From the NCBI RefSeq assembly GCF_009811795.1, contig NZ_BLJE01000007.1:1-64000 (forward strand): a DNA stretch of 64,000 nt, given 5' to 3'. Positions 30,514 to 53,588 of this stretch are shown here, one piece after another. Under the pieces are notes generated by a model, which was not told the DNA's origin, made no database searches, and saw nothing but the letters and a program-made list of their open reading frames with translations. The position numbers were made by a program, and so were the translations under genes. Each line of letters opens with the position of its first letter. Within the stretch, counting starts at the first letter, position 1. This DNA comes from Litoreibacter roseus (GTDB lineage Bacteria > Pseudomonadota > Alphaproteobacteria > Rhodobacterales > Rhodobacteraceae).

Positions 30514-30569
30514 TTCTATAACTCAAAAGTGGTCTATATGTGAGTTATAGAAAGGAGTTCTATAACTCA
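30514..30569. promoter_or_regulatory. Three-copy operator overlapping fic promoter, ribosome site and start codon
   Basis: TTCTATAACTCA occurs at 30514-30525 and 30558-30569, and its exact reverse complement TGAGTTATAGAA at 30541-30552. Copies 2 and 3 form a perfect 12-bp-arm palindrome whose 5-base loop is AGGAG, the ribosome site, and copy 3 ends on the A of the fic ATG. Copy 1 lies between a TTGACT -35 (30509) and a TCTATA -10 (30533). Autorepression by the Fic protein's own winged helix is the simplest reading. Confidence 0.8.
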
Positions 30570-31684
30570 TGGCATGGAACTGGCAGATGCCCGGTTGGCC
30601 GGATTTCCGGTATGACGATGCAGAGCTTGCGCCACTCGAGCAGCGTTTCTTGCTGTCGTCAGGCGAAGTCCTGGGTGCCGTTCAGCATGTCAGTTCGGCA
30701 GAGCGTGATCAACTCCGCATCGACCTGCTGAGCGATGAGGCCATGAAAACCAGTGCCATTGAAGGCGAGATGCTGGACCGGCGCAGTGTGCAGTCGTCAC
30801 TCCGCAGACACCTCGGATTGGAACCAGACAACTATCCGAACAAACCCCGCGAGCATGGTGTTGCTGAGATGATGGTTGACGTTTACTCGACCTATGCGGA
30901 GCCCCTCACGCACGACACCCTGTTTCGGTGGCACGAGATGCTTTTGTCTTTTGACAAAAGGTTGGAGGCCATCGGGTCCTATCGGCAGCACGAAGATGCC
31001 ATGCAGATCGTCTCGGGTCGTCTTGACCGCCCGGTCGTGCATTTTGAGGCCCCTGCATCTGCGCAGGTTCCGGATGAGATGGAACGGTATATCGACTGGT
31101 TCAACCGGACAGGGCCCGATGCGGAAAAGCCTTTGCTGGCACTGACGCGCGCGGGCCTGAGTCATCTCTACTTCGAAAGTATCCACCCGTTTGAGGACGG
31201 CAATGGTCGCCTGGGTCGGGCCCTCGCCGAAAAATCGCTAGCTCAGAACATTGGGCAGCCGAGCCTGATCGCGCTCGCCTTCACCATCGAGCGAAAACGC
31301 AAGGACTACTACGATCAGCTTGAGCGGCATCAGCAGACGCTAGATGTCACGCCTTGGCTGATATGGTTTGCAGAGAGCGTTCTGGAAGCGCAACAGGTCA
31401 CCCTCGACCGCGTGGGCTTCTTCATTGCCAAGGCCCATTTCTACGACCGACATCGCGACGCGTTGAATGAAAGGCAGGCCAAGGTTATCGAGCGTATGTT
31501 CCGGGAGGGGCCAGATGGGTTCAAAGGTGGCCTAAGTGCGGAGAACTATATTTCGATCTCCGGGACATCGCGTGCAACTGCGACCAGGGATCTACAGGAA
31601 CTTGTTGAGATCGGAGCCCTCACGCGCACGGGCGAACGCCGGTATACCCGCTACTGGCTCAAGCTTGAGGGGTCGAGAGAATAG
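30569..31684 (+). CDS. Fic family protein with C-terminal winged helix
   Basis: 371-aa Fic-domain protein that would transfer AMP (or another nucleotide part) to a target hydroxyl. The active motif HPFEDGNGRLGR is intact near residue 205, and an N-terminal inhibitory helix carries TSAIEGE near residue 62, i.e. a class II self-inhibited Fic protein. A C-terminal winged helix (about 300-365) has SGTSRATATRDLQELVE. The tightly spaced operator repeats over its own start suggest autoregulation. It may be a toxin-like or stress-response protein. Its targets are unknown. Confidence 0.92.
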   Translation: MAWNWQMPGWPDFRYDDAELAPLEQRFLLSSGEVLGAVQHVSSAERDQLRIDLLSDEAMKTSAIEGEMLDRRSVQSSLRRHLGLEPDNYPNKPREHGVAEMMVDVYSTYAEPLTHDTLFRWHEMLLSFDKRLEAIGSYRQHEDAMQIVSGRLDRPVVHFEAPASAQVPDEMERYIDWFNRTGPDAEKPLLALTRAGLSHLYFESIHPFEDGNGRLGRALAEKSLAQNIGQPSLIALAFTIERKRKDYYDQLERHQQTLDVTPWLIWFAESVLEAQQVTLDRVGFFIAKAHFYDRHRDALNERQAKVIERMFREGPDGFKGGLSAENYISISGTSRATATRDLQELVEIGALTRTGERRYTRYWLKLEGSRE

Positions 31685-31859
31685 TGCAGCGTCGGCGGAG
31701 AGGGCGGGAAGCCGTAGCTCGCTGCATCTGCACTTGAGACACGAAGCGGATATGCGGATCAGGAGCGCAGGGCTTGGTGCGACGTGTTTTCCTCATTCGT
31801 TCCTACATTCAGAATTGGCAGCATGCTTTCAGGATGGTCAAAAGAGACTGATAGAGGCT

Positions 31860-36673: not shown

Positions 36674-36854
36674 GCGTCTTCCTTAAAACTGAAGTGTTGC
36701 TAATTGAGAAGCCTGCCGCACGGTGGTCTCAGGAAATCTCCATCACTTGGGTCGTATGTACACTGATCTAAGAGTTTGAGCCCATGTCACGTTTCAACTA
36801 GTGTGGAGCAGCCAAGCGTTTGAGCTGGGTTACTTTGCCGGAAAGCAGAATGCT

Positions 36855-38113: not shown

Positions 38114-38941
38114 ATGATTAAGCTCGAGCGAGTAAGGACTAAGACTGCAATCCCGTCGGCTTTCCGTGGCCGGACGCCTCGCAATCGTTTGGTTGCAATG
38201 CTGAAGCACGCCCGCAGCCAACTTAAGGCGGGGAAGCCAATCAGGCATGATATCGAGTCAAAGTGGTCGAACACCAAGGATCAACTCTTGATCGAAACTC
38301 ACAACAAGTGCGCCTATTGTGAGTCCGACATAACGACCGTGTCCTATGGCGATGTCGAGCACTATAGGCCAAAGTCAATTTATTGGTGGCTGGCTTACGT
38401 CTATGACAACTACTTGGCGTCTTGTGCAATTTGTAATCAGCGATTCAAAGGGGCAAAGTTTGAGTTTCTGGGTCCGGCTATCCCCCCACCGACAGTCCTA
38501 GCTACTTCGACTGACGAAGAGTTGGAAGAGCTGGCGGCAGTCCTCATTCCTGATCCGCTTGATGAAGATGCTGTTGTAGTTTTTGAAGAATTGCATCGCG
38601 CTGAGAGCCCTTTGATACCAAACCCGTATATTGATGATCCTGAGCCAATTTTTGCTTGGGAGGTTTTTGAAGGTGCGCGCGAAGTCGAGGTCATTCCTAA
38701 CAATGCATTTCCGAACTCAGATAGGATCGTCGACGCGTGTGAGCGGATCTACGGGATTAACAGGCCCCAGTTGAAACGGAGGCGGTATAAAAGGTTCGAA
38801 TTTTACAACTTATTCCGCAATGCGCTCAACGATCTTCCAGCGGGGGCTCCGTCACGCTCTGATGTTGAGGAGATGTTGGTGAGTCTCCGAAAAGCAGACA
38901 GTGAGTATGCAGCGATGATTAGGTTTCTGGATGCTGCGTGA
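38114..38941 (+). CDS. HNH nuclease (PtuB/TIGR02646-like)
   Basis: 275-aa HNH endonuclease. A zinc-type CAYCES motif (about residues 56-61), the core VEHYRPKS, then YLASCAICNQRFKGAKF form the ββα-metal fold seen in PtuB and TIGR02646 proteins. The His of EHYRPK is the likely catalytic base and CxxC pairs bind structural zinc. It is coupled to the AAA ATPase gene 5 bases upstream. The likely role is DNA cleavage when the ATPase senses infection. Confidence 0.82.
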   Translation: MIKLERVRTKTAIPSAFRGRTPRNRLVAMLKHARSQLKAGKPIRHDIESKWSNTKDQLLIETHNKCAYCESDITTVSYGDVEHYRPKSIYWWLAYVYDNYLASCAICNQRFKGAKFEFLGPAIPPPTVLATSTDEELEELAAVLIPDPLDEDAVVVFEELHRAESPLIPNPYIDDPEPIFAWEVFEGAREVEVIPNNAFPNSDRIVDACERIYGINRPQLKRRRYKRFEFYNLFRNALNDLPAGAPSRSDVEEMLVSLRKADSEYAAMIRFLDAA

Positions 38942-39547: not shown

Positions 39548-39964
39548 ATGTCTGGTCGGTACACCAAAGCAGAACTTCTGACCGCATTGTGGAAACTTAG
39601 TACAGACGATGAACGCATTCCAACCTCTCACGGGATTTTGGATAGAGCGTTGAGGGATTGCCAAGATACGCTTCCCGATGCGCTGAAAAACGGTCTGTCT
39701 TTTGGTGTAACAGGTGTTGGCCTAAGATGTTTTGAATTGCCAGATATTCTTCTGGCTGCACAAGAAGCAATGCTTACTTCTGAGCCTAATCCGACCTATT
39801 TGTCGTCTATTGTGACGTTGGACGAAGGACGTGCCAGACAAATCGCTGTTGCGAATGGTCTATCAAGCGCGCAAGCGAAGGATATTGGCAGGCAGTTGCT
39901 TGAGAGGGTTCATCAGGTCAAGGACCAACTAAACGATGAGCTCACGGAGCGCTCCGTCGCCTGA
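39548..39964 (+). CDS. Hypothetical 138-aa partner of the HD-nuclease gene
   Basis: 138-aa soluble protein, not recognised. Its first 65 residues (YTKAELLTALWKLS...) look like a helical DNA- or protein-binding unit; the C-terminal part is a long helix. A strong GGAAGGGAG ribosome site lies 5 bases upstream of the ATG. Its 3' end overlaps the first possible start of the HD-nuclease gene by 29 bases, suggesting coupled expression, so it may be a regulator or specificity subunit. Confidence 0.6.
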   Translation: MSGRYTKAELLTALWKLSTDDERIPTSHGILDRALRDCQDTLPDALKNGLSFGVTGVGLRCFELPDILLAAQEAMLTSEPNPTYLSSIVTLDEGRARQIAVANGLSSAQAKDIGRQLLERVHQVKDQLNDELTERSVA

Positions 39965-42437
39965 AGTTCCAATGGCTGCAAGTGTTCGATCGACGCTAAG
40001 AGGTGTCGCTAAGTCGCTTACGCGAGAAATAGATTCTGTTTGCCAACCTTGGTTGGAGGGGCTTCACGAGAAGCTATCATCAGAGCATTCCACAGATTTT
40101 CAACCCAAACAGGTAAACGACCCCATTTGGGGCACGATTGAGTTGCTTCCCTGGGAAGTAGCACTTCTCGACACGCCGTTCATCCAACGACTACGTGGCG
40201 TAAGGCAGCTTGGATTGGCTCAGTTGGTTTTCCCGGGTGCCAATCACGGCCGCCTCGAGCACAGCATTGGTGTGATTGGTGCCCTGGAAGAGGCGACACG
40301 AGCTCTTGGTCGCCAAGTTGAGCGGTGGAATATCAAGAACCCCAATACAACGATTGGAAAAATTGATACCGCAGATCGCTATGCTGTTCGCTTGGCCGGG
40401 TTGTTTCACGATGTTGGTCATGGGCCATTCAGTCACGCACTTGAACCAGTTCTCGAAGTCTCGTCTCCTCTTGAAGGCACGAAAAGGGAAGAGGGAGGAT
40501 GGCGATCTGAACTTCCCATCGTTCGCAAAGCCCTTTCTGAACTCTACTCGCTCAACAAGATTCCTTCCAGTTCTGTCGCGATTGCGGTGATGATGGTGTT
40601 GTCTGAACCGATACATAAGCTGCTTGAAAGTGGTCTAATGTCGGAGATTCAACTTAGTGCCAGCAAGTTAGAAGAGCGCATCGTCGCAGCTATTGTCGGA
40701 GCAGTTGAGGGCCCCGGCGCGAGCTACCTCTCCGCACTTGTTAGTAGCCAGTTGGATGCAGATCGCATGGACTACTTGGCTCGCGATGCGCACCATGCCG
40801 GATTAGAAATCGGGTTTGACACTCAAAGGTTGCTCGCCAAACTCGAAATCCTGCGTGTTCGCGAAGAGAATTTGCATCCAACGGAGCGAGAGCTCCGAGA
40901 CAGAGCAATTAAGAGCGACGAAGGAACGTTCTTGCAGTTGGGCATCGCAGCCTCCGGGTTTGGTTCATTCGAGCAGATGCTGATCGGCCGCACTTTTCTT
41001 TACGATCGCCTCTATCATCACCACAAGGTTCGAGCTGCTGAAGCGATGGCTCAACGCTTAATGTTAGTTGCGGAACGGGACCGTGGGAAACGGTTCACAT
41101 TTAAAGAGATTTTTCTTGGTGTTGGTGATGAAACAATGCTGCGAATTTTTTCGCGAGAAGTTCAACATGCCGAACTTGAGACAAAGAGTGAGGCTGCTGC
41201 AAGCTTAGCTGCTCGAATTCTGGAGCGAGATCTCTTGCATCGTGCATATGCTTTTCGGGGACGATTTATTGCCACCCCGAACGGTTATGACGCGAAAGAG
41301 ATGACAGCTACCCAAAACGAAAGCTGGCTTCGAGTCGTCAAGACGCTCGAGACTTTGGAAAGCCGATACGCTCTTGGAAACGAGATTTACGACCTCGCCA
41401 GCAATTTTTGTGAAGTACTGTCAGCGGCGAGTCCACATGACCGAGAGCTAAGTAGAATTAAAGCGGCTCTTGCTGAAGTCGGACCTGAACACGTGATAGT
41501 CGACCTTCCTGAGAGTAAGACAGAAGGGATACGTCTACTTGCGCGATATCCAAACGGTGCCTTGCGTGTCCCAGAATTCTCCTTCAACCCGCAAAAGTGG
41601 GCCGAAGCATACGATCTACAAAAGCGTACCGGTTACGTGTTCTGCCCGAAGAGTGTGGCGCCAATCATTGGAATGGCAGCAAAGACGGTATTCTTGAAGA
41701 AGTTTGGCGTAGTGATGGCACAGGAAGCCGACGGATACATTAAGGCTGATCCTGCTCCCGACGATTGGACGGCTCCAGTCATTGGTGCAGGGATTATCGA
41801 CCAGAGGGCTGCGGACCTCCTCAAAGCAAAACGTCACTCGCTCATGCCTGTACGCGAGGAGGATCTAGGGGTACCTGACGATTGGCTCAAGACCGATCCA
41901 GACCTGGCGACCAAACTTTCTTTGCAAATACAAGATTGTTTGCATGGCGGTTTAACTTCTGAAGATATGGAAGCCTTCAGAAAAGTCATGAGCGGTTTGT
42001 TCTCTTTTGCTGATGAGTGGTTCATGGGTGACTACGTAACCAGTGATCTCGCTAGTGAGCGGGAATTGCAAACTCGAATGGCACGGTCTTTACGATCTTC
42101 AAAAATAAGTCTGGATGAAGGGACTGAGGTCAGCGGTGGCGAGCTTGACCTTTTTGCAGAGGATGCGATCCTCATAGAAAACAAGTTCTCATCAAAGCCG
42201 AAAAAAACGATTGGCGATGCAGCAGGCGTACAAGGCAGGCGGTATGCAATCTCGCTCAGCTCGCAGGTTGTCGTCGTCGTGGCCGGTTCCAAGGCAGCTG
42301 CCGGTGCATTTCCCGACAAGGCGAATTGTGTCAGTGTTTGCCGTGTTGCTGGCAATGATTTGAACCGAGTAGAAATCCGATTTGATCTGCCGTTTGGCGC
42401 TGTCCCACCGTCTGGCGAAAAAGCACCCAAGCGTTGA
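39936..42437 (+). CDS. HD phosphohydrolase fused to PD-(D/E)XK nuclease
   Basis: 833 aa (or 821 from ATG 39972). The N-terminal half is an HD domain of the SAMHD1/dNTPase-like superfamily: RLEHS with His109, FHDVGHGPFSH with His158/Asp159, and a distal LDADRMDYLARDAHHAG near residue 280 supplying the last metal Asp. The C-terminus adds a restriction-endonuclease-like core with Asp738 (GGELDLF), Glu748-Asn-Lys750 and Gln766. Related HD dNTP hydrolases starve phage of nucleotides; adding a nuclease to the same chain is unusual. It overlaps the 138-aa gene and is followed by the GHKL-Shedu gene. Confidence 0.85.
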   Translation: MSSRSAPSPEVPMAASVRSTLRGVAKSLTREIDSVCQPWLEGLHEKLSSEHSTDFQPKQVNDPIWGTIELLPWEVALLDTPFIQRLRGVRQLGLAQLVFPGANHGRLEHSIGVIGALEEATRALGRQVERWNIKNPNTTIGKIDTADRYAVRLAGLFHDVGHGPFSHALEPVLEVSSPLEGTKREEGGWRSELPIVRKALSELYSLNKIPSSSVAIAVMMVLSEPIHKLLESGLMSEIQLSASKLEERIVAAIVGAVEGPGASYLSALVSSQLDADRMDYLARDAHHAGLEIGFDTQRLLAKLEILRVREENLHPTERELRDRAIKSDEGTFLQLGIAASGFGSFEQMLIGRTFLYDRLYHHHKVRAAEAMAQRLMLVAERDRGKRFTFKEIFLGVGDETMLRIFSREVQHAELETKSEAAASLAARILERDLLHRAYAFRGRFIATPNGYDAKEMTATQNESWLRVVKTLETLESRYALGNEIYDLASNFCEVLSAASPHDRELSRIKAALAEVGPEHVIVDLPESKTEGIRLLARYPNGALRVPEFSFNPQKWAEAYDLQKRTGYVFCPKSVAPIIGMAAKTVFLKKFGVVMAQEADGYIKADPAPDDWTAPVIGAGIIDQRAADLLKAKRHSLMPVREEDLGVPDDWLKTDPDLATKLSLQIQDCLHGGLTSEDMEAFRKVMSGLFSFADEWFMGDYVTSDLASERELQTRMARSLRSSKISLDEGTEVSGGELDLFAEDAILIENKFSSKPKKTIGDAAGVQGRRYAISLSSQVVVVVAGSKAAAGAFPDKANCVSVCRVAGNDLNRVEIRFDLPFGAVPPSGEKAPKR

Positions 42438-42454
42438 GCCTGTTGCATGTTTAT

Positions 42455-42470
42455 GACATCTCAAGATGTC
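42455..42470. repeat. Palindrome between HD-nuclease and GHKL-Shedu genes
   Basis: GACATCT-CA-AGATGTC, 7-bp perfect arms, 18 bases after the HD-nuclease stop and 38 before the next ATG. There is no T-run, so it is more likely an operator or processing site than a terminator. Confidence 0.45.
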
Positions 42471-42508
42471 GCTGAGAGCCCTAGTTTCTCCAGTTGGAGT
42501 AAATCAGA

Positions 42509-44464
42509 ATGACTAGAACCATTGAAGTCGTCGCCCAAAAGGATTTCTGGCAACGCTTAGCCGCCGGAAGCCCACTAAGGGCGCTGTCAGAGTTGGTTTC
42601 GAACTCTTTTGATGCAGACGCCAGCACAGTTAGAATTTCTCTGTCTATGAACCAGCTGGGGCTTGTCACCAAAGTTGTGGTTAAAGACGATGGCGAAGGT
42701 ATCTCGTATTCCGCTACTGAGCACCTTTTTTCGCAACTAGGCAATTCTTGGAAGATGAGCGCTGTGCGTTCGCGGTCCAAGAAGCGGTTGCTCCAAGGCA
42801 AAAACGGTGAAGGGCGATTTAGGGCTCTGTCACTTGGTGAGATCGTGACGTGGTCAACAGTTTATGAAGAAGATGGCAGGCGGCTGCAGTATCAGATTTC
42901 GACACAAGAAAAATCAATTGGCACGTTTGAAATCAGCGACATCTCAGAAGCGAAAGCGAAAGCCACTGGAACAACGGTTACCATCGAAAATATCTTTGAA
43001 AAAACAGCATCATATTTTTCAAAAGATCGACAAGAAGATTTACTACACTCTTTTGCTCCCTATTTGAATAAATATCGCGATGCTGATCTATATTTTGACG
43101 GGAAGAGGATTGATGTTGGTGGATTAGTTGCAAGTGCGAAGGAAACGAAAATTGGCCCTCTGAAGCTGTCAGGAGGCATTAAAATTTCCGCTGTCTTGGA
43201 GATATTGGAGTGGAGCAGCGATCTTGGTAGAGCGTTCTATCTTTGTGATGAAACTGGCTTTACCATTTCTGAAAGACCACCTGAGATAAGAGCTCCAGGT
43301 TTCAGTTTCAGCGCCTACGTTAAAAGCTCGCACATATCCCAGCTACAAGCATCGTCACTTGCAGATATCGATATGGAAGAGGGGTTAATCCGTCTCGTAA
43401 AGGAGGCGCGAGAAATACTGTCTAGACACTTCAGAGATCGTGAGAAACAGAAGGCTGAATCTCTCATACAGAAGTGGCGGGACGAAAGAGTCTATCCTTT
43501 TGCTGATGCCGAAGACACGCCGGTGATCCGCCAGACCAAAAAAATCTTCAATATGTGTGCGGTCACAATTAACAAACATGCAAAAGACTTCGATGCTCAA
43601 GGCAAGGTGTCAAAGGCGTTGTCATTTCGGTTGTTACGAGAAGTCATTGAGGACCGCCCTGCTGACCTGACACGTATATTGTCTGACGTACTGAACTTGT
43701 CAAAAGATAAACGAAAGCAGTTCGCGTCATTGCTGAACAAGACAGCTTTGACGGACATTATTGATACTGTTGCGTTCGTAGATCACCGGCTCAATGCCGC
43801 TCGAGGTCTGAGATCGCTTGTTTGCTATACGTCAACACGCAAAACTGTGAAAGAACGTCAGCACATTCATCAGATCGTGGAGCGTAATCCATGGCTCTTC
43901 GGGGAGGAGTTTGCCCTAGGCCAGAGTGAGTCGTCCCTAACAAATTCGCTGAAGGAGCACCTTAGAAGACTAAAACGCCCAGTCGAGGTGCTTCATCCGG
44001 TACTGCTGCCTGGTGGGAAGAATGCACGAATAGACATCATGCTCTGCCAAACCAATAAGATCAGTGGGCGAACTGATGACCATCATCTGATCATTGAGCT
44101 GAAGCGGGCGAAGAAGAAACTCGATCTAGGTGATTTTTCGCAGCTTATGAAGTACGCCGATGCCATTATGAAAGATGTAAGGTACGAAAAAACTGGTGTG
44201 AAATGGTCGTTTTGGCTTGTCGGCGTTTCGCTGGCGCCAGAGCTCGAAAGCTTAGCTGAAGCGTCAGACCGCCCGCGAGGTTGTGCACATGTTTTCAAGG
44301 AAGGTGAAGGAAGCATTTGGGTAAAGACATGGGGTCAGGTCCTTCATGACTGTATATCACGCCATGAATTTGTTCGCGAAAAGCTCGACATAGCGATTTC
44401 TGACGAGGAAGCAGTGGCATACCTCAATGAAATTTATCCTGAGTTCGTGCCTCAAGCAGGTTAG
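42509..44464 (+). CDS. GHKL ATPase fused to Shedu-like nuclease
   Basis: 651-aa protein. GHKL ATPase motifs: N-box ELVSNSFDAD (28-37), G1 KDDGEGI (59-65) and G2 GKNGEGRFR (97-105). After a helical middle region the C-terminal ~200 residues resemble the Shedu (DUF4263) nuclease domain: ERNPWLFGEEF (about 458-468), Asp509 (ARIDIML), Glu530-Leu-Lys532 (IIELKRAK) and Gln545. Shedu nucleases act in anti-phage defence; here the sensing part is a Hsp90/MORC-type ATPase. It differs clearly from the other GHKL-nuclease at 31860. Same strand as its neighbours, 71 bases after the HD gene. Confidence 0.85.
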   Translation: MTRTIEVVAQKDFWQRLAAGSPLRALSELVSNSFDADASTVRISLSMNQLGLVTKVVVKDDGEGISYSATEHLFSQLGNSWKMSAVRSRSKKRLLQGKNGEGRFRALSLGEIVTWSTVYEEDGRRLQYQISTQEKSIGTFEISDISEAKAKATGTTVTIENIFEKTASYFSKDRQEDLLHSFAPYLNKYRDADLYFDGKRIDVGGLVASAKETKIGPLKLSGGIKISAVLEILEWSSDLGRAFYLCDETGFTISERPPEIRAPGFSFSAYVKSSHISQLQASSLADIDMEEGLIRLVKEAREILSRHFRDREKQKAESLIQKWRDERVYPFADAEDTPVIRQTKKIFNMCAVTINKHAKDFDAQGKVSKALSFRLLREVIEDRPADLTRILSDVLNLSKDKRKQFASLLNKTALTDIIDTVAFVDHRLNAARGLRSLVCYTSTRKTVKERQHIHQIVERNPWLFGEEFALGQSESSLTNSLKEHLRRLKRPVEVLHPVLLPGGKNARIDIMLCQTNKISGRTDDHHLIIELKRAKKKLDLGDFSQLMKYADAIMKDVRYEKTGVKWSFWLVGVSLAPELESLAEASDRPRGCAHVFKEGEGSIWVKTWGQVLHDCISRHEFVREKLDIAISDEEAVAYLNEIYPEFVPQAG

Positions 44465-44592
44465 CTTTCTTCGAATGATCCTCGTTCGATTTTCAGCTAT
44501 ATGTTTGAGTTGCGGATACGAAAAACACTGGACTAGGTTATTGGTAGCTGGTCCAGAGGGACCTTAAGTTTCCAATGGGAGATACGAGAGAT

Positions 44593-46293
44593 ATGGCAAA
44601 GGAGAAGTTTGAACGCCATAAGCCTCACTTCAATATCGGTACAATAGGACACGTGGACCATGGGAAAACAACTCTAACGGCGGCGATCACGAAGTACTTT
44701 GGTGACTTCAAAGCTTACAACGAAATCGATAGCGCCCCGGAGGAGAAAGCCCGCGGAATCACTATATCGACAGCGCACGTAGAGTATGAGACTGAGACGC
44801 GTCACTATGCGCACGTCGACTGTCCTGGCCATGCCGACTACGTAAAGAACATGATTACCGGTGCTGCGCAGATGGACGGTGCGATTTTGGTGGTGAGTGC
44901 AGCCGACGGCCCTATGCCTCAGACTCGCGAGCATATCTTGTTGGGCCGTCAAGTGGGTATTCCTCACATAGTGGTTTACTTAAACAAAGTCGATCAGGTC
45001 GATGACGATGAGCTGCTTGAGCTGGTAGAAATGGAAATTCGCGAGTTGCTTTCGTCCTATGAGTACCCCGGCGACGACATTCCTGTGATCTTCGGCTCTG
45101 CTCTCGCAGCAATGGAAGGTCATTCGGAAGGTATTGGTGTAGGTTCTATCAAGGCACTGATGGCCGCTGTGGATGAGTATTTCCCCACGCCTGCACGTGC
45201 TGTTGACCTGCCATTCCTGATGCCGGTTGAAGATGTTTTCTCAATTTCTGGTCGAGGTACTGTTGTCACAGGCCGGGTCGAGCGTGGAGTGATCAATGTT
45301 GGCGATGAGATCGAAATTGTAGGAATCAAGGAGACACAAAGGGTAACCTGTACCGGTGTCGAGATGTTCCGTAAACTTTTGGATCGCGGCGAGGCTGGCG
45401 ACAACATTGGCGCACTACTGCGCGGCATCAACCGTGACGCGGTGGAGCGCGGCCAAGTTCTTTGCAAACCTGGCTCGGTGACCCCGCACACCAATTTCGA
45501 GGCAGAAGCTTACATTCTGACTAGGGAAGAAGGTGGTCGTCACACGCCGTTTTTCGCAGACTATCGACCGCAATTCTACTTTCGGACAACAGACGTGACC
45601 GGCACGGTTCAGCTACCTGAAGGCACCGAGATGGTAATGCCGGGCGACAATCTGAGGTTCAACGTTGAACTCATTGCTCCCATCGCAATGGAGCAGGGAC
45701 TGCGGTTTGCGATACGGGAAGGCGGCCGCACCGTAGGTGCAGGCGTAGTGGCAAGAATACTGGATGAGGGAAGCCCGATTGGCCTCGCATCCAGTACGGG
45801 AGAAAAAAACGATCTCAACAAAGCGGTAGGCGCACTCGCCAGTATTTTAGCTGTCGCAGAAGAAGATAGCTCGTTTGGCGATCGCTCAGAGGATTACGAT
45901 AAGTATATGAATTCGCTATCCAAAGACGTTCGTGCAGCTGCAGAGAGCATAATTGGCGCCGTTGCGACGATTGCAAATGACCAGCCTTCTAGTTTTATGC
46001 TTTTGGACCTAATGGCGCTTGCTGGGAAGAGCCATGACGCTGATAAGTTCGCGAAGGCAGTCCTTTTTCTTTCATCATCTCCAATCGGTATCTTTTCCGT
46101 GGAGGCCATTTTTATCGACTCATTTGGAAAGAGATTTCTTTTATCCGAAGCCAATTTCATCTCTGCATTAGATTCTGACGAACTCCTTCATCCGGAGACG
46201 GGCCGGATCATCAAAGATGTTGAGACTTCAGTGTTTCCAGTTTTCTCTTTAAGAACAAGTGCCAAAGAGAAAAAGACAAATGCATTTCACTGA
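44593..46293 (+). CDS. EF-Tu-like GTPase with ~175-residue C-terminal extension
   Basis: 566 aa. Residues 1-391 are a full EF-Tu with all GTPase motifs: GHVDHGKT (19-26), RGITIST (54-60), DCPGH (76-80), NKVD (131-134), SAL (169-171), and intact domains 2 and 3 (e.g. [19 protein letters not shown]). It reads like an alphaproteobacterial EF-Tu, not a distant paralogue. Normal EF-Tu would end near 391; here an unrecognised helical then beta-containing domain follows (392-566). Its gene overlaps the downstream nuclease gene by 14 bases, so the two are coupled. The ATG at 44593 gives the standard MAKEKFER start; ATG 44575 would add six residues. It is unlikely to be a housekeeping tuf. A decoy, sensor or ribosome-targeting scaffold is more plausible. 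Confidence 0.93.
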
Positions 46294-46924
46294 CGACGAT
46301 TTCCACGAGACCAATAACCTGAGAACTTTGAGGCTCCTAACTCAATTTGCAGAAGGTCTGGCTGGTGGGTATGCGTTCAAATATCAAGTTGCGCCGAACC
46401 ACGAAGTGAGGACCGAAGCGCTAGAGGGAATGCTCGAGTATGCCTACGATTCATTGGTTCGAAATCGCCATTTGAATAAAAACCAATCGGAGGACGAGCT
46501 TACGGTTCAGATTGTGGAACAACTGGCTCAATTCCAGGTGATGGCCTCACATGATACACAAGTCGGAGGTCACTGCGATATTCTGGTAAGAGGCCCAGAG
46601 AGATTTCAATGGATTGCAGAGGCAAAAATTCACAGCACGTATGGTTGGTTGACGGATGGCTTCTTACAGCTGTCAACAAGGTATGGAACTGCTTTGCCGG
46701 GGCAGAATCAGGGCGAAATAATAATCTACTGTCGAGGCTCCAATGCACTTGAGGTGCTGCGGAAGTGGCGAAAAAAGCTAGAGGAGATGGAGGTGGCTGA
46801 AATAATTGAAGATCGCTCTGATCAGGATCTTTGGTTTAGATCATGTCATACTTGCAGCAATAGCGGTTTGGATTTTTCTATCAGGCATAAGATCGTACCG
46901 CTACATTTCGCGCCGAGAAAATAG
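46280..46924 (+). CDS. Small PD-(D/E)XK nuclease coupled to the EF-Tu fusion
   Basis: 214-aa protein with a complete restriction-endonuclease-like active site: Glu73 in SEDELTVQ, Asp100 in GGHCDILV, Glu114-Ala-Lys116 in IAEAKIH and Gln130. The C-terminus has a Cys-His-x-Cys cluster (SCHTCSNS, about 188-195) that may bind zinc. The ATG at 46280 lies inside the last codons of the EF-Tu-fusion gene (a GTG at 46259 is an alternative), so translation is coupled. It is the likely effector of that two-gene module. Whether the substrate is DNA or RNA cannot be told. Confidence 0.82.
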
Positions 46925-46991
46925 CTAAGAGCACTCACAGTAGCGGTACCGTACGTTGGATAACTGACATTTTGAGCGCATGGGGCCGTTG

Positions 46992-47927
46992 CTAGCCTAA
47001 TATCTTAAGAATATCCGCCCGTTCCAATGCGCGACGCAGAGCATGGTTCGAGACCCGCACATAGATCTCGGTGGTCTTGAGGTTCGCATGCCCGAGGAGA
47101 GCCTGAACCATCCGGATGTCGATACCTTCTTCGATCAGCAGTGTCGCGGCCGAGTGCCGAAACCGATGCGGGGTCAGGTGGGGTTCGATGCCGAGACGTT
47201 TCGACATCGCCCGCAGCCGCTTTCGGAAGGTGGCCGCGCGAAGCCGCCGTCCGACCGTGTTTAGAAACAGCGGCGACGCCAAGGAGCCATGTTCGGAACG
47301 CATCTGAGAGTAGCGTCGAAACTCCTCCTGCAGTTCCCGGTTCGGCACGAACACGATCCGCTCCTTGCTGCCCTTGCCGTTTACGAGGATCTGGCCACTG
47401 TCCGGCGACACCTCGCGGACTTTTACATTTGTCAGTTCGCTGATCCGAAGCCCGGTCACGATCAGCAGCTTGATGATCAGGAGCGTGACACGATCTTGCG
47501 AGGTCGGTGCCGTGTCCTCTGCGCCTGGCGTCGATTGCGCAGCGATGGTGCCATCGTTGGCGCTGAGGACCGCTCTGAGGATGTCTCGATCGATGGGGCG
47601 CGGCAAGCGACGCGGTATCCTCACGGAGATGCGGACGTCGGCGAATGGGGAGGGCAGGGCGCTGTTCCGATCTGCGCGCCAGGCAAAGTACGACTTCAGG
47701 GTCACGAGCCGCCGCTCGATGGTGGCAGGCTTGGCGCCCAACTCGTCGCGCAGATGCCGGTGGTAGGCGAGGATGTCGTCCTTCGACAGCGGCTCTGTGA
47801 GCCGGTGCACCTTGATGAAGCGCGCGAAGGTGCGCAGATCCTGGGCGTAGGCCCGAAGCGTGTGGTGGCCCAGGCTGCGCTCGTCGCGGCGCGAATTGAC
47901 AAAGGCGGTGTGATCGAGATGGGGCAT
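46992..47927 (-). CDS. Tyrosine recombinase 2 (XerC/D-like)
   Basis: 311-aa tyrosine recombinase. An N-terminal core-binding domain (residues 1-90) precedes the catalytic Arg in VTGLRISEL, Lys in NGKGSKER, HRFRHSAA, LLGHANLKTTEIYV and the nucleophilic Tyr of EIYV. It is markedly G+C-richer than the island genes to its left. A 23-bp perfect inverted repeat (48004-48026) lies 77 bases upstream of its start. It bounds the defence island on the right and is read in the same direction as recombinase 1. Confidence 0.92.
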   Translation of the reverse strand: MPHLDHTAFVNSRRDERSLGHHTLRAYAQDLRTFARFIKVHRLTEPLSKDDILAYHRHLRDELGAKPATIERRLVTLKSYFAWRADRNSALPSPFADVRISVRIPRRLPRPIDRDILRAVLSANDGTIAAQSTPGAEDTAPTSQDRVTLLIIKLLIVTGLRISELTNVKVREVSPDSGQILVNGKGSKERIVFVPNRELQEEFRRYSQMRSEHGSLASPLFLNTVGRRLRAATFRKRLRAMSKRLGIEPHLTPHRFRHSAATLLIEEGIDIRMVQALLGHANLKTTEIYVRVSNHALRRALERADILKILG

Positions 47928-48003
47928 GCTGAACTCCTTTGGTTGAGTCCAGCCAGTTCAGCACAGTCGGGTCTCTCCGCCGAAATCTACCGCCTGAGCG
48001 GTG

Positions 48004-48026
48004 ACGATAATGGGACCCATTATCGT
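48004..48026. repeat. Perfect 23-bp inverted repeat upstream of recombinase 2
   Basis: ACGATAATGGG-A-CCCATTATCGT, 11-bp arms around one base. It contains ACGATAA and TTATCGT arms shared with palindromes at 56629-56649 and, with mismatches, 60360-60380. Candidate recombinase crossover site or operator. Confidence 0.6.
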
Positions 48027-48040
48027 TATTTTACTGGGTA

Positions 48041-48775
48041 TCAGCCACTGCCTTCTTCTGTGATCGGTTCGACCGATGTCACATTTTCGGAGGCACCGAG
48101 GCAGTTGTCTAGCAGATTCAGGTATTGATTCAGCAAGACTAAATCGGCGGGCTGCATTACTTTGAGCGATGCTAGTCTTTCGAGCCCGGCTCCTTGTTCT
48201 TCCGATAAGGTTGCGCCAGCCAGTAGATCGTCCCGTATCTGCGTAAAATCAGCAACTTCACGTACCAGAGCTTCGCGCGTGATTATTTTGATTTCTTCGA
48301 TAGCGCCGAATGTTGCAGCTCTGGCCATCCCTATTGTTGCCGCACTAGTGCCATCCAACAAAAATCCGCCCATCCGCGAGGTTGTCGATACGCAGTTCAT
48401 TCTCTTTGCTGCTACGTAGATTCCTTGTATCGTGTCCTCTGATACAGTTCGGCCTGCTACTGAGGTAGAGCTAACACCTATCAAAGCACGGTTCGCTAAA
48501 GCAGTGTCGGAAGCACCGCCGACAGCGCCACCGACAAAGGTTGCAGCCGCTAGGTAGGTAAGAATCGCTGCAATATCTTGGCCGCCTGAAGCTTCAAGAG
48601 CGGCCTCACGGTAGGCCACTGAGAGAAGGGCACTGTGTTCGCCAATAGTCTTGAGATTACTATTGCTGTTAACTTGGCTGAAACTAAGAACCTCGCCTTC
48701 TTTCTCTAGCAAACTACGCTCCGCACATCCCATCATCAAGATGCAGAGGCCTACGGTGATCGATACTTTTTTCAT
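48041..48775 (-). CDS. Putative lipoprotein, unknown function
   Basis: 244-aa protein with a lipoprotein signal peptide: Lys-Lys start, hydrophobic core and lipobox LMMGC (Cys17). The mature protein is Ala/Gly-rich and helical, including a weakly hydrophobic glycine-zipper-like stretch (about 68-95, TFVGGAVGGAS). It lies downstream of the small membrane protein and haloperoxidase-like genes on the same strand, 106 bases from the former. Function not recognised. Confidence 0.65.
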   Translation of the reverse strand: MKKVSITVGLCILMMGCAERSLLEKEGEVLSFSQVNSNSNLKTIGEHSALLSVAYREAALEASGGQDIAAILTYLAAATFVGGAVGGASDTALANRALIGVSSTSVAGRTVSEDTIQGIYVAAKRMNCVSTTSRMGGFLLDGTSAATIGMARAATFGAIEEIKIITREALVREVADFTQIRDDLLAGATLSEEQGAGLERLASLKVMQPADLVLLNQYLNLLDNCLGASENVTSVEPITEEGSG

Positions 48776-48881
48776 TTTGTCTCTCAGTTAATTTTGGGTC
48801 TTCAAACATTGTCGTTCTATGTGCATCGATAATTTTACTAAAATCAGGAGTGCCGCTCAATGATGAAGAAGCGAGTTCTGA

Positions 48882-49199
48882 TTATGATCGAAGCATACCG
48901 GCGAGTGCGCCAACCCCTGCTGAAGTTAAGGCGATGACCCATTCAGGCGTATCTGTCATCTTGCCGAAACCGATAAGGGAAAGCGCGCCGACTACAGTGA
49001 TAATCAGTGTCGCACCGACAAAGACGACTGCTGCTTGGTAGATGAAATTGTTGGGTAAATCCTGATTTGCGCGGATTTCATCGTCTGCTGCGCGCAGAAC
49101 CTCGGAAGGTTTTTCTCCAAGTTTGGTTGACAAGGTCGGGTTGGTCTCAATCCGTGAGACCAACTCCTTTACATTTTTGATACCTTTCAGATCTTCCAT
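48882..49199 (-). CDS. Small membrane protein, unknown function
   Basis: 105-aa protein: a charged helical N-terminus (residues 1-50) and two transmembrane helices (about 55-77 and 86-102). It begins 3 bases after the haloperoxidase-like stop, so it is co-transcribed with that gene. It may anchor or regulate the module at the membrane. No family recognised. Confidence 0.6.
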   Translation of the reverse strand: MEDLKGIKNVKELVSRIETNPTLSTKLGEKPSEVLRAADDEIRANQDLPNNFIYQAAVVFVGATLIITVVGALSLIGFGKMTDTPEWVIALTSAGVGALAGMLRS

Positions 49200-49202
49200 C
49201 TT

Positions 49203-51164
49203 TCAGGCGATCGCTACCGCTGGTTGGTCGACGATGCCGTAGTCGGCGATATCACGGGTCCACCATGTATCGCGCGGCACTTCGATACCTTGCGCATTTG
49301 TGATCTTCGTCTTGACGGAGTTGGTGCCATATCCTCCGTCGGTTTGGATCAGTTCAATAGTGTCGCCATCAAAACTGGTCAGGGTAAGGGACAGTTTTTC
49401 GTGATAGGTGAACATTTGCTCCTCAAGGATGCCGATGGCGATGCGTTCGCCCATACGAAGGCTGTCGTAATAGTCAGAATAGTAATGCACCCCCGCGATG
49501 TTTCGACCAATGGAGATGTTCGCAGCGAGCTTGTCGAGCTCGTCCGACAGGCTGGCGTTTTTCCCATCTTGTCGTTTCGCCTTAACAAGCGTGTCTGCAT
49601 CATCAGCTGCATATAAAGTTCCGCCGCCATTGATTTTTTCACCGAATCCCACGTTGGAATCGAAAAAGGCCTTCAGTACCGTTACACAGGCACCCGCAAC
49701 AGTTGCGTGACCCGCACCATAGGCAGGGTGCATTGGCGATCCTTCAATGAAGGCCATTGGCAACAGAAAGTTCTTATCGTCCGAAATTGGCGCAGCCTTT
49801 CCTGCACCGTTCTTATGCAGGTTAAGCTGTTGTACCCAATCCAGAATTGACCCTTCCCGCGCGGTCCGTTTCTTCAGATCGAACCCCAGTTCTTTGAGCA
49901 TGTTTTCCAGTTGCTCAATTGCGGCAGGATCCATTCCGCCCACGTGGCCTTCGGCCACTTGGGATATGCGCGCAGCAATCACTTCAGGCCGAGCGCGGCG
50001 ATGGACCTGAAACTTGGTTCGCCGGGCGGCGCGCAGACCACGTGTCGCAACTTCCGTAACGAGGCTCAGAATATGGGGGCCGCCCCAGGTGGCAAAGGGC
50101 ATGCTGTTGGAGGACCTTTGTTGAGCAATCGGGTTGTCGCCATCTGTACCAATTTTGCTATCCAGCATGATCAGACAGGCGTTCAAGTACGCTTGGTAAA
50201 GCGCGTCGAAATGAACGTAGCCGGCCAAATCGCGGGGCGTGTGAATGCGGCGCTTGATCTTGTGTGCGGGATGGTCAAAAAGTGTACCCTGCTGAACCTT
50301 GAGCCACTTCTCCCAGGTCGTCATGTAATCTTCGGACGCTTCCGGGATAAGTTGAGCTTGCTCAATGGTTTGCAAACCGTAACTGATTTTTCCATCCTTG
50401 GGGTCTCCACCCTTATTGTTGGCCTTTGTCAAATCATGCGTGCCGAGGAGCATGAACTGCGATATGTAAGGGCCCTGCTTTGCACCTGCGGTTGATCCGC
50501 GGAACAGCACATCAATTGTCAGCCCTTTTTCTGGTGTTTCCCACAGAGACGCACGCCGCCGTTGTTCATGTGCAGTCAGGGTATGACCTTTGTATCCGAT
50601 AGGTTTTCCGGCGGGGTCAAACCAGCTGAGCTTTCGGAGCTCTGCGATCAAGTCACCAACGCTAACCTTCTTTGTGCCGGTCTTAATGTCCGGGATAATC
50701 TTCTGAGGATCGCATAGATCTTCGAAGGACATATCCCGCGTCAGGGCCATGGCGTAAACCGTTGCCATTTCAGCGCACAGCTCGCTGCGGCCCAGTTTAG
50801 GTGCCGGGGCCATCGCAACCGTATCGGAATCTACCCCGATATCGTTGAAGTAGACGCCTGCAAGCGGGCTTTCCCATTTGCGCGCTTTCTCACCCGCACT
50901 GATTGACAAGCCGCCCATGTTCACGTCGCCGGTAATGAGCGCTGAGCAAAACTTGGCATACTCTTCTTTTGTCGCGAGGCCGTACTTATCGTGCTTGAGC
51001 CCTTTCGTAAAACTTGCAGGCTGGCCGTGTGAGTAGAGTGTCTCGTCATTGTTGTTGATCGGTGTCAGCGTTGGAAGCATGTCAGAATAGCTGAGTGCGT
51101 TTTCACGGCGTTTTTTTGCCTCAGGACGGCGGGTCATTCCGCTTTGCAACGTAGGTTTGGTCAT
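49203..51164 (-). CDS. Vanadium-dependent haloperoxidase-like protein
   Basis: 653-aa protein of the vanadium bromoperoxidase/PAP2 superfamily. The vanadate-binding signature is visible as HPAYGAGHATVAG (normally SGH, so an Ala replaces the Ser) and RNIAGVHYYSDYYDS, with an upstream Lys/Arg pair near KFQVHRRARP. No signal peptide. Such enzymes oxidise halides with peroxide; whether this one has that activity is open given the Ser-to-Ala change. ATG 51164 has AGGGGA 8 bases upstream; the longer frame (51269) lacks a signal and is not preferred. A second protein of the same fold lies two genes away. Confidence 0.82.
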   Translation of the reverse strand: MTKPTLQSGMTRRPEAKKRRENALSYSDMLPTLTPINNNDETLYSHGQPASFTKGLKHDKYGLATKEEYAKFCSALITGDVNMGGLSISAGEKARKWESPLAGVYFNDIGVDSDTVAMAPAPKLGRSELCAEMATVYAMALTRDMSFEDLCDPQKIIPDIKTGTKKVSVGDLIAELRKLSWFDPAGKPIGYKGHTLTAHEQRRRASLWETPEKGLTIDVLFRGSTAGAKQGPYISQFMLLGTHDLTKANNKGGDPKDGKISYGLQTIEQAQLIPEASEDYMTTWEKWLKVQQGTLFDHPAHKIKRRIHTPRDLAGYVHFDALYQAYLNACLIMLDSKIGTDGDNPIAQQRSSNSMPFATWGGPHILSLVTEVATRGLRAARRTKFQVHRRARPEVIAARISQVAEGHVGGMDPAAIEQLENMLKELGFDLKKRTAREGSILDWVQQLNLHKNGAGKAAPISDDKNFLLPMAFIEGSPMHPAYGAGHATVAGACVTVLKAFFDSNVGFGEKINGGGTLYAADDADTLVKAKRQDGKNASLSDELDKLAANISIGRNIAGVHYYSDYYDSLRMGERIAIGILEEQMFTYHEKLSLTLTSFDGDTIELIQTDGGYGTNSVKTKITNAQGIEVPRDTWWTRDIADYGIVDQPAVAIA

Positions 51165-51383
51165 CGTGTTTCCCCTAAGTGTGATGAGCTTGCGCTGAGG
51201 ATCAGCGCGTGCAGTTGTCGCGTTGAACGCAGTGGAGAAGTGCCACGAGAGAACCACGGCACAGCCCACGTTGTCTGTAGGTATGAGGAAGCTTGGAGTG
51301 CGTTATTCGAAGGTTATTCAAGCGTTAACGGTTCGTTAATTCGCACCATCTCAGCACAAAATTTGGCTGTGTTGGATCGCGTT

Positions 51384-51416
51384 CCTCCCCGCTGGACTGC
51401 GTGCGGCGGGGGAAGG
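51384..51416. repeat. G+C-rich inverted repeat after the subtilase gene
   Basis: CCTCCCCGC (51384-51392) and GCGGGGGAAGG (51406-51416) can pair with minor bulges. It is just downstream of the leftward protease stop (51425) but has no U-run, so terminator function is uncertain. The remaining bases of 51165-51424 show no gene. Confidence 0.35.
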
Positions 51417-51424
51417 TGGTGATG

Positions 51425-53587
51425 TCAGAAGTGCCGCCGCCGCTTGCGCATTCCAAGGCCTGCTTTGGCAATGTCGTAACTATCCGGATAGGGAATATGG
51501 CCTGCGCCGACTTTCAATGGGGCGGGGTCAAGATAGCCGTCTGGGCGACCTGATTTCTTGAAGGTGCGCGCGGCGGTTTGCAGCCACGGTTGCCCAACTT
51601 CTGTGCGTGGGTCCAGGAGGAGGCAATCTACCATCATGCGTGAGGCCAGGGCAGTTGCGACGCTGGTTCCATTCAGCGCCAATGCGGCACCGTCCCTTGG
51701 GCCAGCTCCCAGAACACCAAAATGCAAAACGCCATCTTCACAGGGCAACGCGACGTCCACATCGGATTGATTGTTGTAGTCGGGCGGACCTTTGTAACCG
51801 GTGGCAGAATATGGCGCCGGTTGCCCGTCTGATCCGCGATAGCCCCCAATCATCGACGCATAGGGGGTCGATGCAAGCGCATTGTGCGAACCGACCCGCG
51901 TGACCGGCCCGCTATCAAGTTTCTCAATGGGGTCACTATATGTGAAGCTATCCCGCACACGCCCGCCTTCGATAAAATCTTGGTAATCCGGGTGATCAAA
52001 ATAAGCCCGACGTGCGTTTTGAGAGAACGGACTGTCAAAAAGATCGGCCTGGATATTCGCATCAAATCTTAGCGTATTCTTTAGACCTTTAAATTCAAAC
52101 GTCCAACGCCCAGCCGGCGCAAGATCAACGTTGCACGCTTTTGAACCGTCAATGGCATCGGTTTTCATATCGTAGAATACGAGGGTAGGTGCCAGGGCCA
52201 CAACCACGCGCAGCCGGACTCTGTCCTCCGCACGCAAACCCGATCTTCGAAGTGAATAATAGACCCTCCCAATCACAGACTTTCCGTCCGCGCTCGGGAT
52301 ATCTTTCATTTCTGGTGTCCGGTTTTTGGGTTTCGAAATCTCAATGGTATGCATCTGTCCGTTCGGCAGTTTGATTTCAAGTTTGGATTTCTTGAAATAT
52401 TTGGACGTCCTGTTGAACGTTTCGGACCAGAACTCGATAAATGTCGAAGAATGATCATTTGGTTGTAAGACAACTTCGAAAGGCGTGTGCCCTTCTGGAG
52501 CAATCGTCTCGCGGGCTGAAATGCGTGAAAGATTAGAGTTCCCAGCCGGCATGTTGACGAAGGTTTTGACATCTCGACGTTTGCGATTGCCGGCCGCATT
52601 GGGCGTTTTGCCCTGGCAGTTTGTTCTGCTATCGTCATCTCCGTCATTGGCGCGCTTGCGAATTTCCTCCCGGATAGCCCGTTCCATATCCAGCGATCCA
52701 TCTTTTGGTCCTGCTTCAAAACCAAACGAAAAGCTCACGACGATCGGGAACTGGTGGTCGCTATCAAAATTTTCACATCCCTCTTTGTGTTTGGCCTTGG
52801 AAATAGCATCTGCAATCCGCAAGATACGGATCAATCCAAGCACAGCGTGGTATTGCAAAAAATTGCCGCTATGGCCGTGGAAAAAGAGCGGCGGTAAGGC
52901 GACCGCAATCAAATGGCACCGGCTGTTTTCACCCGTCCGCATCGACCCAAAGCGCCCCGGATCAATGCCACCCGCAACATCAAGCATATGTGTGCCATGC
53001 GAGGCTAACATCTGAAGCTCTTTACTGCCTTCCCAGACTGGTTTGTCAGGATCGACCAACCCGAGAGCACGGTTAAATCCTTCCTGATCCAGAGGGTTGT
53101 CTAAGCAGCCGTCGCTGTGTTCTTTTAACTTTTCCTCAATCTCAGTGGTAGACAATTCCCGCCCAAATGGTAGATGAGGCGCGCCCGCTTGTTCTGAAGG
53201 AGCACCTTGCAGCCAAGCTGAAAGGAAACGAGTTGAGCCGTCCTTAAACCTGAACCGCCGATGCCCCAGTGCAAAGTTTGTATCAATTACGCCTAGGATG
53301 ACATCATTTGCTTCAACATGCGAATAGTCGGCCGCTGTTGCGGCCCAATTTTGCCACTTCGTTGGGCAAAATTTAAAGTTCTTCGCCTTTTTGGGCAGTG
53401 GCACTTGAAAGATTGAGCTACCTCGTCGGTTTCTGAGACCAAAAACATCGCCTCTCAATTTTTGAAAATTAAACTCCCCGGCTTCTCCGGTTTTTCGACT
53501 ACCTTCCGCTTTGCTCCACCAATCCACGTATGGATCGGTAACGGCGACCTCTGGAAAGGTATCTGATGATGTACTTTCCTTGGCCAT
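51425..53587 (-). CDS. Subtilisin-like (S8) serine protease, cytoplasmic
   Basis: 720-aa S8 peptidase with the full catalytic triad: Asp102 in LGVIDTNF, His197 in ASHGTH, Ser642 in NGTSVATA. A large insertion between His and Ser (about 200-620) includes a beta-rich region. No signal peptide or obvious propeptide, so it would act in the cytosol, unusual for this family. It is flanked by two vanadate-fold proteins and separated from the PAP2-like gene by one base. It could be an activated protease that processes its neighbours, but that is inference. Confidence 0.9.
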   Translation of the reverse strand: MAKESTSSDTFPEVAVTDPYVDWWSKAEGSRKTGEAGEFNFQKLRGDVFGLRNRRGSSIFQVPLPKKAKNFKFCPTKWQNWAATAADYSHVEANDVILGVIDTNFALGHRRFRFKDGSTRFLSAWLQGAPSEQAGAPHLPFGRELSTTEIEEKLKEHSDGCLDNPLDQEGFNRALGLVDPDKPVWEGSKELQMLASHGTHMLDVAGGIDPGRFGSMRTGENSRCHLIAVALPPLFFHGHSGNFLQYHAVLGLIRILRIADAISKAKHKEGCENFDSDHQFPIVVSFSFGFEAGPKDGSLDMERAIREEIRKRANDGDDDSRTNCQGKTPNAAGNRKRRDVKTFVNMPAGNSNLSRISARETIAPEGHTPFEVVLQPNDHSSTFIEFWSETFNRTSKYFKKSKLEIKLPNGQMHTIEISKPKNRTPEMKDIPSADGKSVIGRVYYSLRRSGLRAEDRVRLRVVVALAPTLVFYDMKTDAIDGSKACNVDLAPAGRWTFEFKGLKNTLRFDANIQADLFDSPFSQNARRAYFDHPDYQDFIEGGRVRDSFTYSDPIEKLDSGPVTRVGSHNALASTPYASMIGGYRGSDGQPAPYSATGYKGPPDYNNQSDVDVALPCEDGVLHFGVLGAGPRDGAALALNGTSVATALASRMMVDCLLLDPRTEVGQPWLQTAARTFKKSGRPDGYLDPAPLKVGAGHIPYPDSYDIAKAGLGMRKRRRHF

Positions 53588-53588
53588 C

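Follow-up and report, generated by a model that had tools for sequence, protein, structure and literature searches.

EF-Tu fused to the adapter of a nuclease operon: a candidate modular alarm unit in Litoreibacter roseus

Here we describe, in a 64,000-nucleotide stretch of Litoreibacter roseus DNA (the window; contig NZ_BLJE01000007.1, positions 1 to 64,000 of the forward strand), a gene for a complete elongation factor Tu (EF-Tu) that is extended at its C terminus and overlaps the gene of a PD-(D/E)XK nuclease. By homology, the extension belongs to the middle protein (B) of a recurrent three-gene operon, A-B-C, in which C is the nuclease, and EF-Tu stands in the place of A. Related loci carry other proteins at the same point, including ribosomal protein uS3 and restriction enzymes. 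We narrowly favour a modular alarm-and-nuclease unit in which EF-Tu replaces the usual sensor protein, forming an integrated decoy that would release a DNase. More tentatively, as a serious possibility, we suggest that such fusions are integrated decoys as a class: a spare essential translation protein (EF-Tu; uS3) would be plugged through an exchangeable adapter into a DNase alarm that fires on phage attack, with a socket that also takes restriction enzymes and other modules.

EF-Tu is an established phage target, as an earlier note on this DNA, made from sequence alone, had pointed out. According to the available extracts of PMC3014915, the T4 Gol peptide binds EF-Tu domains II and III, leading to cleavage by Lit at Gly59-Ile60; EF-Tu is also ADP-ribosylated by T4 Alt and by ModB, the latter acting on S1 as well. 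phiKZ014 binds host ribosomes early (PMC10914614, likewise in extract). No report of phage action on S3 itself was found in the literature searched.

Results

A complete EF-Tu is joined to a B domain

The fusion occupies an open frame at 44575..46293 on the forward strand. With its start at ATG 44593, as in native tuf (MAKEK...), the coding sequence (44593-46290) is stop-free and encodes 566 residues; the stop codon lies at 46291-46293 and the nuclease ATG at 46280, giving the 14-base overlap that the earlier note had reported, from which we infer translational coupling.

44593..45765, +, EF-Tu module (residues 1-391): complete GTPase domain and domains 2 and 3 (TIGR00485, Pfam, alignment with own tuf)
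45766..45909, +, linker (residues 392-439), partly helical, low confidence (extension structure model)
45910..46275, +, B domain (residues 440-561), winged-helix-like adapter (B-model homology)
46280..46293, +, 14-base overlap of fusion end and nuclease start (coordinates of both frames)
46280..46924, +, C: PD-(D/E)XK nuclease, 214 residues, with E71, D100, E114-x-K116 and Q130 (alignment and fold)

An inverted repeat, GGTCC-AGAG-GGACC (44550-44563, +), lies 30 bases 5' of the fusion start and is a possible operator or leader hairpin. No tRNA (ARAGORN) and no Rfam family was found in the window.

Residues 1-390 align end to end with EF-Tu, scoring 715.7 bits against the full-length, three-domain model TIGR00485 (cut-off 522.4), and each of the three Pfam EF-Tu domains exceeds its cut-off; the complete EF-Tu with a C-terminal extension that had been proposed is borne out. 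The RGITI switch-I site, the target sequence of Lit/Gol, is intact. With its large C-terminal domain the gene is no plain tuf, and among 57 tuf frames recovered from 59 loci fetched, window included, the window copy alone exceeds 400 residues. EF-Tu matches also occur in 86 plasmid records (60 of them listed) and 19 phage records, many of which, to judge from the type of record, seem to be chromosomal or host DNA.

The extension had been described as an unrecognised domain spanning residues 392-566. Compared with relatives, it can be placed: a B model from other loci matches residues 440-561 at E 6e-21, and a 25-gene B alignment without the window matches the extension in hhalign with probability 98.5 and E 1.5e-15. 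With a B-domain model that excludes it, the extension reaches 73.4 bits, compared with 8.0 for the best shuffle (805 scored of 1,000 made). A C-terminal motif resembling HPETG..I.D.E..VFP.F is common to the B genes and the EF-Tu extension, which on this homology is a counterpart of the middle gene of the A-B-C operon. A domain is thus present, its conserved part confined to residues 440-561; residues 392-439 form a linker (mean predicted local distance difference test score 54-64 over the first four ten-residue blocks of the extension model). The B homology, at 73.4 bits versus shuffles of at most 8.0, rules out a plain tuf lengthened by frameshift or sequencing artefact, a possibility that the note had itself raised. 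The extension matches no known family in Pfam, PADLOC or NCBIfam, the B family has no match by sequence in the PDB (best E 0.57), and of 11 pattern-matching stretches in viral contigs none was confirmed as a close relative of the extension.

A winged-helix-like domain behind an elongation factor recalls SelB, and the fusion could in principle read an mRNA element through it, with the nuclease a bystander. This is the least probable of the readings considered: the SelB profile gives 190.9 bits, below its cut-off of 242.25 and far from the 715.7 of the EF-Tu model, and the domain is homologous to B genes beside the same nuclease in loci that have no EF-Tu.

The A-B-C operon family

A tblastn search of plasmids with the nuclease returned 16 records, of which 13 were opened. 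Twelve of these encode A (~350-400 residues), B (~125-150) and C (~210-265); the remaining one, from Rhizobium phaseoli (L010), has B at the end of an MmeI-like protein. A profile scan with a 10-row C alignment identified 26 loci in GTDB species genomes and 26 in viral contigs, and another C alignment found 26 loci in viral contigs, 8 of them new. Counting matches to C at E<1e-15, and C genes with identical last 150 residues once, we obtained a census of 76 distinct C genes: 62 in A-B-C operons, 8 in fusions without A (B in a frame of >250 residues, with no A within 300 bases), 2 in B-C pairs without A and 4 with no adjacent B. The census leaves out L109 (fragmentary C), L125 (distant C-like domain), L120-L122 and five loci that coincide with the window's own (L001, L016, L081, L116 and L127).

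The window has B directly upstream of C, as in the A-B-C family; the supposition that extension and nuclease belong together is therefore upheld, since their homologues stand together as B and C in an operon that recurs. No A gene was found in six frames of window positions 40001-50000, and EF-Tu occupies its place. The A family is itself unmatched by sequence in the PDB (best E 0.44).

The nuclease family was found in Pseudomonadota, Cyanobacteriota and one actinomycete-type metagenome-assembled genome (MAG). C occurs in 1/21 genomes of the genus, 6/394 of the family sample, 7/292 of the order, 1/385 of the class sample and 7/398 of the phylum sample. Another alphaproteobacterial family gave 6/248 genomes, three of them at E 2.5e-6 to 1.6e-5 only. 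These samples overlap one another and, except in the last, the hits include the window's genome.

Variants of the operon were also seen. The two census B-C loci without A come from one MAG (G1086), which holds three separate B-C loci (L107, L108 and L109) with no A detected, one of them with a C fragment only. Three of the four C genes with no adjacent B (L110, L111 and L124) follow a type III-like restriction helicase gene, with a C-like nuclease at E 1e-20 to 1e-25 and no detectable B, and by sequence would represent another coupling of the C nuclease to restriction machinery. At the fourth, L099 (NZ_CP064203.1), ~1.3 kb separate A-B from C, so the two parts can be divided by other DNA. A complete A-B-C operon makes up about one third of a 6.1-kb mobilizable plasmid (L096, NZ_CP075557.1). 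A Stutzerimonas plasmid carries a stand-alone B, surrounded by numerous small genes without annotation (L009, NZ_CP142123.1 44322-44747); it is 44% identical to the B of a Ruegeria type ISP fusion and could be an inhibitor of the system or a bait against it.

Exchangeable N-terminal modules

Besides EF-Tu in the window, the eight fusions comprise uS3, two FeeM-like acyltransferases, two type ISP enzymes, HsdR and an MmeI-like methylase.

L027: uS3 fusion (Pfam KH_2 9e-16, Ribosomal_S3_C 8e-24)
L040, L041: FeeM N-acyl amino acid synthase fusions (Pfam 1.5e-45 and 6.5e-45)
L034, L088: type ISP restriction enzyme fusions (Pfam)
L043: HsdR-type subunit fusion (Pfam)
L010: MmeI-like enzyme fusion (Pfam)

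A uS3 carrying the same adapter was beyond the reach of the earlier sequence-only note. Its B region is matched by hidden Markov models at E 1.8e-4 and 2.9e-4 and scores 16.3 bits versus 4.5 for the best of 565 scored shuffles, and its stop falls 14 bases before the C frame as read. The genome also holds a separate rpsC, to whose product the fused uS3 is 63% identical; the non-synonymous difference (pN) from E. coli S3 is 0.382 for the fused copy versus 0.293 for the native one. The uS3 tail has no match in phages.

In a C tree of 64 rows, the EF-Tu locus lies beside the A-B-C rows L023 and L029 (branch values 94/87), and the uS3 locus sits on its own branch inside a 13-row set that also holds the EF-Tu locus (100/96). 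The ISP loci form a pair (98/92), as do the FeeM loci (100/98), which stand beside an A-B-C row (100/85); HsdR and MmeI are elsewhere. This scatter is read from the topology of a tree in which 14/61 inner branches are unresolved. Because the fusion loci are scattered, one origin for all of them is not supported, and the module swaps look to have been repeated. Since A is missing, B is fused to differing proteins and the fusions do not group on the C tree, comparison of these loci shows B-C to be an adapter-nuclease cassette with exchangeable N-terminal modules.

The same arrangement could be an antitoxin-like tether, in which B neutralises a toxic C and the fusion merely stabilises or doses B; EF-Tu would then sense nothing, and the unit would serve addiction or the upkeep of a plasmid. 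Such a pair would fit the gene overlap, where the putative inhibitor comes first, the occurrence of homologues on plasmids and in viral contigs, and the stand-alone B with no nearby C (L009). We nevertheless consider it quite unlikely: 4/8 fusion partners are restriction-type recognition machines rather than merely abundant proteins, and A, needless for a simple toxin-antitoxin pair, is present in 62/76 loci.

The predicted fold of C resembles that of restriction endonucleases

The residues E71, D100, E114, K116 and Q130, a conserved acidic/lysine catalytic set, are invariant in 30/30 aligned C relatives. Of the catalytic residues named in the earlier note, D100, E114, K116 and Q130 are among them, and its Glu73 lies two residues from the invariant E71. 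The predicted structure of C resembles OkrAI, BamHI and BglII, with a restriction-endonuclease fold, at 6-14% identity; the window's C has no adjacent methylase partner. By sequence, the C family has no PDB match (best E 0.67). In PADLOC, neither the fusion nor the window's C has a hit at E<=1, and the pairing of AriA ATPase and AriB nuclease that defines PARIS is absent. The PADLOC model PDC-S54 shows weak profile similarity to 8/30 members of the family (best E 2.6e-5); it is a 410-position single-protein model and leaves the window's own C unmatched at E<=0.1. The nuclease query matches four phage records, unconfirmed, and the L041 nuclease as query in viral contigs gave no confirmed match.

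The DNase-like fold, together with the finding of the same cassette on restriction enzymes, favours a DNA target, and C is likely, on its predicted structure, to be a DNA-cutting effector. The strongest alternative, though still unlikely, is that EF-Tu and uS3 bring the nuclease to ribosomes or tRNA and that C cleaves RNA. In its favour, EF-Tu and uS3 both associate with the ribosome, no more than 47 positions separate the EF-Tu part from the host's, and tRNA cleavage by CdiA-CT of E. coli EC869 needs EF-Tu/Ts and GTP (PMC9071432, in extract). Yet C is modelled with a likeness to DNA restriction enzymes, the cassette is also carried by restriction enzymes that act on DNA, where cutting RNA would be of little use, and FeeM is unrelated to translation. 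Of the two roles that had been offered for the fusion, these points make a ribosome-directing scaffold the less likely one and argue for an effector that cuts DNA.

The fused EF-Tu is intact and of family type

The host genome carries two further tuf genes on another contig (C4), mutually identical and 87-88% identical to the fused copy; that ordinary tuf remains counts for a spare-copy bait. Fused and own EF-Tu have 88% amino acid and 76.5% nucleotide identity, with a silent-site difference (pS) of 0.748, near saturation, and a pN of 0.074; pN to E. coli EF-Tu is 0.156 for both copies. Since silent sites are near-saturated yet protein identity stands at 88%, the fused EF-Tu is, on its sequence, under purifying selection, intact and of family type, neither a fresh copy nor a wreck. 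Native tuf products of relatives are 74-89% identical to it, the minimum lying in other families (18/31 genomes matching at E<=1e-150 and 56/100 family genomes at E<=1e-200, own genome in both). A quick tuf tree of 49 rows places the fused copy inside the family's tuf and marks that placement as unsure.

Defence setting

The contig is 169,251 bases long, and since it carries ParA/ParB-like and conjugation-like genes, recognised by eye, it is plausibly a plasmid. Septu and SoFic genes upstream of the fusion mark its setting as a defence island, in keeping with the accessory island described earlier.

30569..31684, +, SoFic-like Fic protein (PADLOC E 1e-41)
36801-38108, +, Septu PtuA (PADLOC E 6e-127)
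38114-38941, +, Septu PtuB (PADLOC E 9e-34)
39936-42437, +, HD-domain protein, in the directly upstream context
42509-44464, +, GHKL ATPase, directly upstream of the fusion
46992..47927, -, tyrosine recombinase adjoining the nuclease (Pfam Phage_integrase E 8e-37)

The HD-domain protein has a nuclease-like C terminus, by eye, and is followed by the GHKL ATPase (39936-44464), which resembles BbrUII/HgiDII restriction enzymes at 66.8 bits in NCBIfam, below the cut-off of 550; the two are perhaps an unnamed two-gene defence unit. A second GHKL-like protein (31536-33956, +) in the same island has weak family hits only. At 56744-60106 (-), a protein of 1120 residues with a PNP/phosphorylase domain, a weak P-loop NTPase-like middle and a C-terminal HD domain looks like a further defence-type protein, and 49203-54800 (-) encodes a PAP2 protein starting with GTGPG-type repeats, a weak subtilase-like protein and an unassigned 688-residue protein.

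Around 26 relatives (L029-L054), the neighbouring open reading frames (ORFs), limited to the five longest at each locus and 114 in all, have matches to 69 PADLOC families at E<=1e-20; the matches listed, for 25 of the 69 families, include type I, II and IIG restriction genes, Drt2, AbiEii and Druantia. As a control, 104 of 112 ORFs from 18 of 19 loci of the window's family, limited to the six longest at each, match 13 families at the same threshold, mostly generic enzymes (RtcR, UvrD-like GajB, polymerase-like) with one REase_II and one mad2, in a comparison that is crude, being of family rather than ORF counts at hand-picked positions in one bacterial family. This tempers the defence association, as does the chance that some neighbour hits are partner genes of the restriction-type fusions themselves.

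Discussion

A sensor or bait role is favoured because EF-Tu stands where other loci carry unrelated proteins, several of which are recognition machines. To the modularity that the compared loci display, we add a putative trigger, target and defence role. The N-terminal module would be where B keeps C, either inactive or simply anchored. A phage product might then bind, cleave or modify the EF-Tu module, a bait that stays close to real EF-Tu; B would relay the change and C would cut DNA, which would stop the infection, probably at the cost of the cell. In the uS3 fusion, translation would have supplied another bait. Where the module is a restriction enzyme, the cassette would equip a machine that recognises DNA with a nuclease, and what is sensed may be that recognition or translocation; with EF-Tu or uS3, contact with a phage product would be the simplest signal.

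Several observations weigh against this proposal. The EF-Tu fusion was encountered only once, and EF-Tu is absent from all 26 C relatives found in GTDB species genomes. Searching 72,556 plasmid records with the extension returned one match, the stand-alone B of L009. This is the only B to have been detected by a B search rather than through C, and no C lies within about 4 kb of it (8-kb locus); the extension is unmatched in 50,697 phage records. Because all eight fusions were found through C, the linkage of B to C is in them a matter of construction. The B of the uS3 fusion is the weakest (hhalign probability 65.8, E 5.7e-5, 82 columns), FeeM is not an obvious phage target, and Foldseek on its own gave no match below E 0.001 for B or for C. 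Finally, the end branch of the fused EF-Tu in the 49-row tuf tree is 0.33, among the longest (median 0.068): judged by this branch, it changes about five times faster than native copies, and its constraint is clearly weaker. Relaxed duty or an arms race would fit equally.

That long branch, and the fusion being a singleton, would also suit a chance fusion or a decaying tuf duplicate inserted upstream of a B-C pair. We regard this as very improbable: silent sites are near saturation at 88% protein identity, the frame is intact, and other proteins are fused at the same point in other lineages.

If the decoy proposal is correct, the modules fused to B would be a readable catalogue of phage host targets (EF-Tu, uS3 and perhaps FeeM-type enzymes), an unannotated three-gene nuclease family would gain a name, and why phages touch EF-Tu would become testable with a two-gene construct. 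The earlier view that the architecture lacks precedent holds insofar as PADLOC 2.0.0, Pfam and NCBIfam (the last for window proteins only) contain no such system, and gives way insofar as the fusion is one form of a wider modular family. Among the matches listed from open-licence PubMed Central (PMC) papers, none concerned a decoy or defence system built on EF-Tu, S3 or a housekeeping protein, and nothing relevant joined FeeM with phage and nuclease; for PDC-S54, no open-licence PMC papers were found.

By analogy, the nearest known logic is that of PARIS (AriA-AriB), Ronin and PrrC. As the extracts of PMC12409349 and PMC3014915 describe them, a nuclease or toxin is kept latent by a sensor or a restriction-type module until a phage factor releases it, and Ronin and PrrC are, like several of our fusions, attached to restriction-modification-like machinery. 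They differ in belonging to other protein families and in that AriB and PrrC cut tRNA, whereas the fold predicted for C is BamHI-like; those extracts describe none of them as sensing through EF-Tu or uS3. Lit/Gol, in the same partial view of PMC3014915, shares the trigger point, EF-Tu bound by a phage product, but Lit is a protease that cuts EF-Tu, whereas here a spare EF-Tu is fused to an adapter and a nuclease is the likely effector. A sensor holding a latent nuclease is thus a known idea; the swappable housekeeping modules would be the new element, and the A-B-C family may already be named in preprints or subscription papers. In plants, nucleotide-binding leucine-rich repeat (NLR) immune proteins carry integrated decoys, copies of host targets built in as bait, and the baits are swapped. 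The fusion described here is bacterial, has no NLR ATPase and places its bait before a winged-helix-like adapter; if our proposal is right, it would be a bacterial counterpart of the plant integrated decoys.
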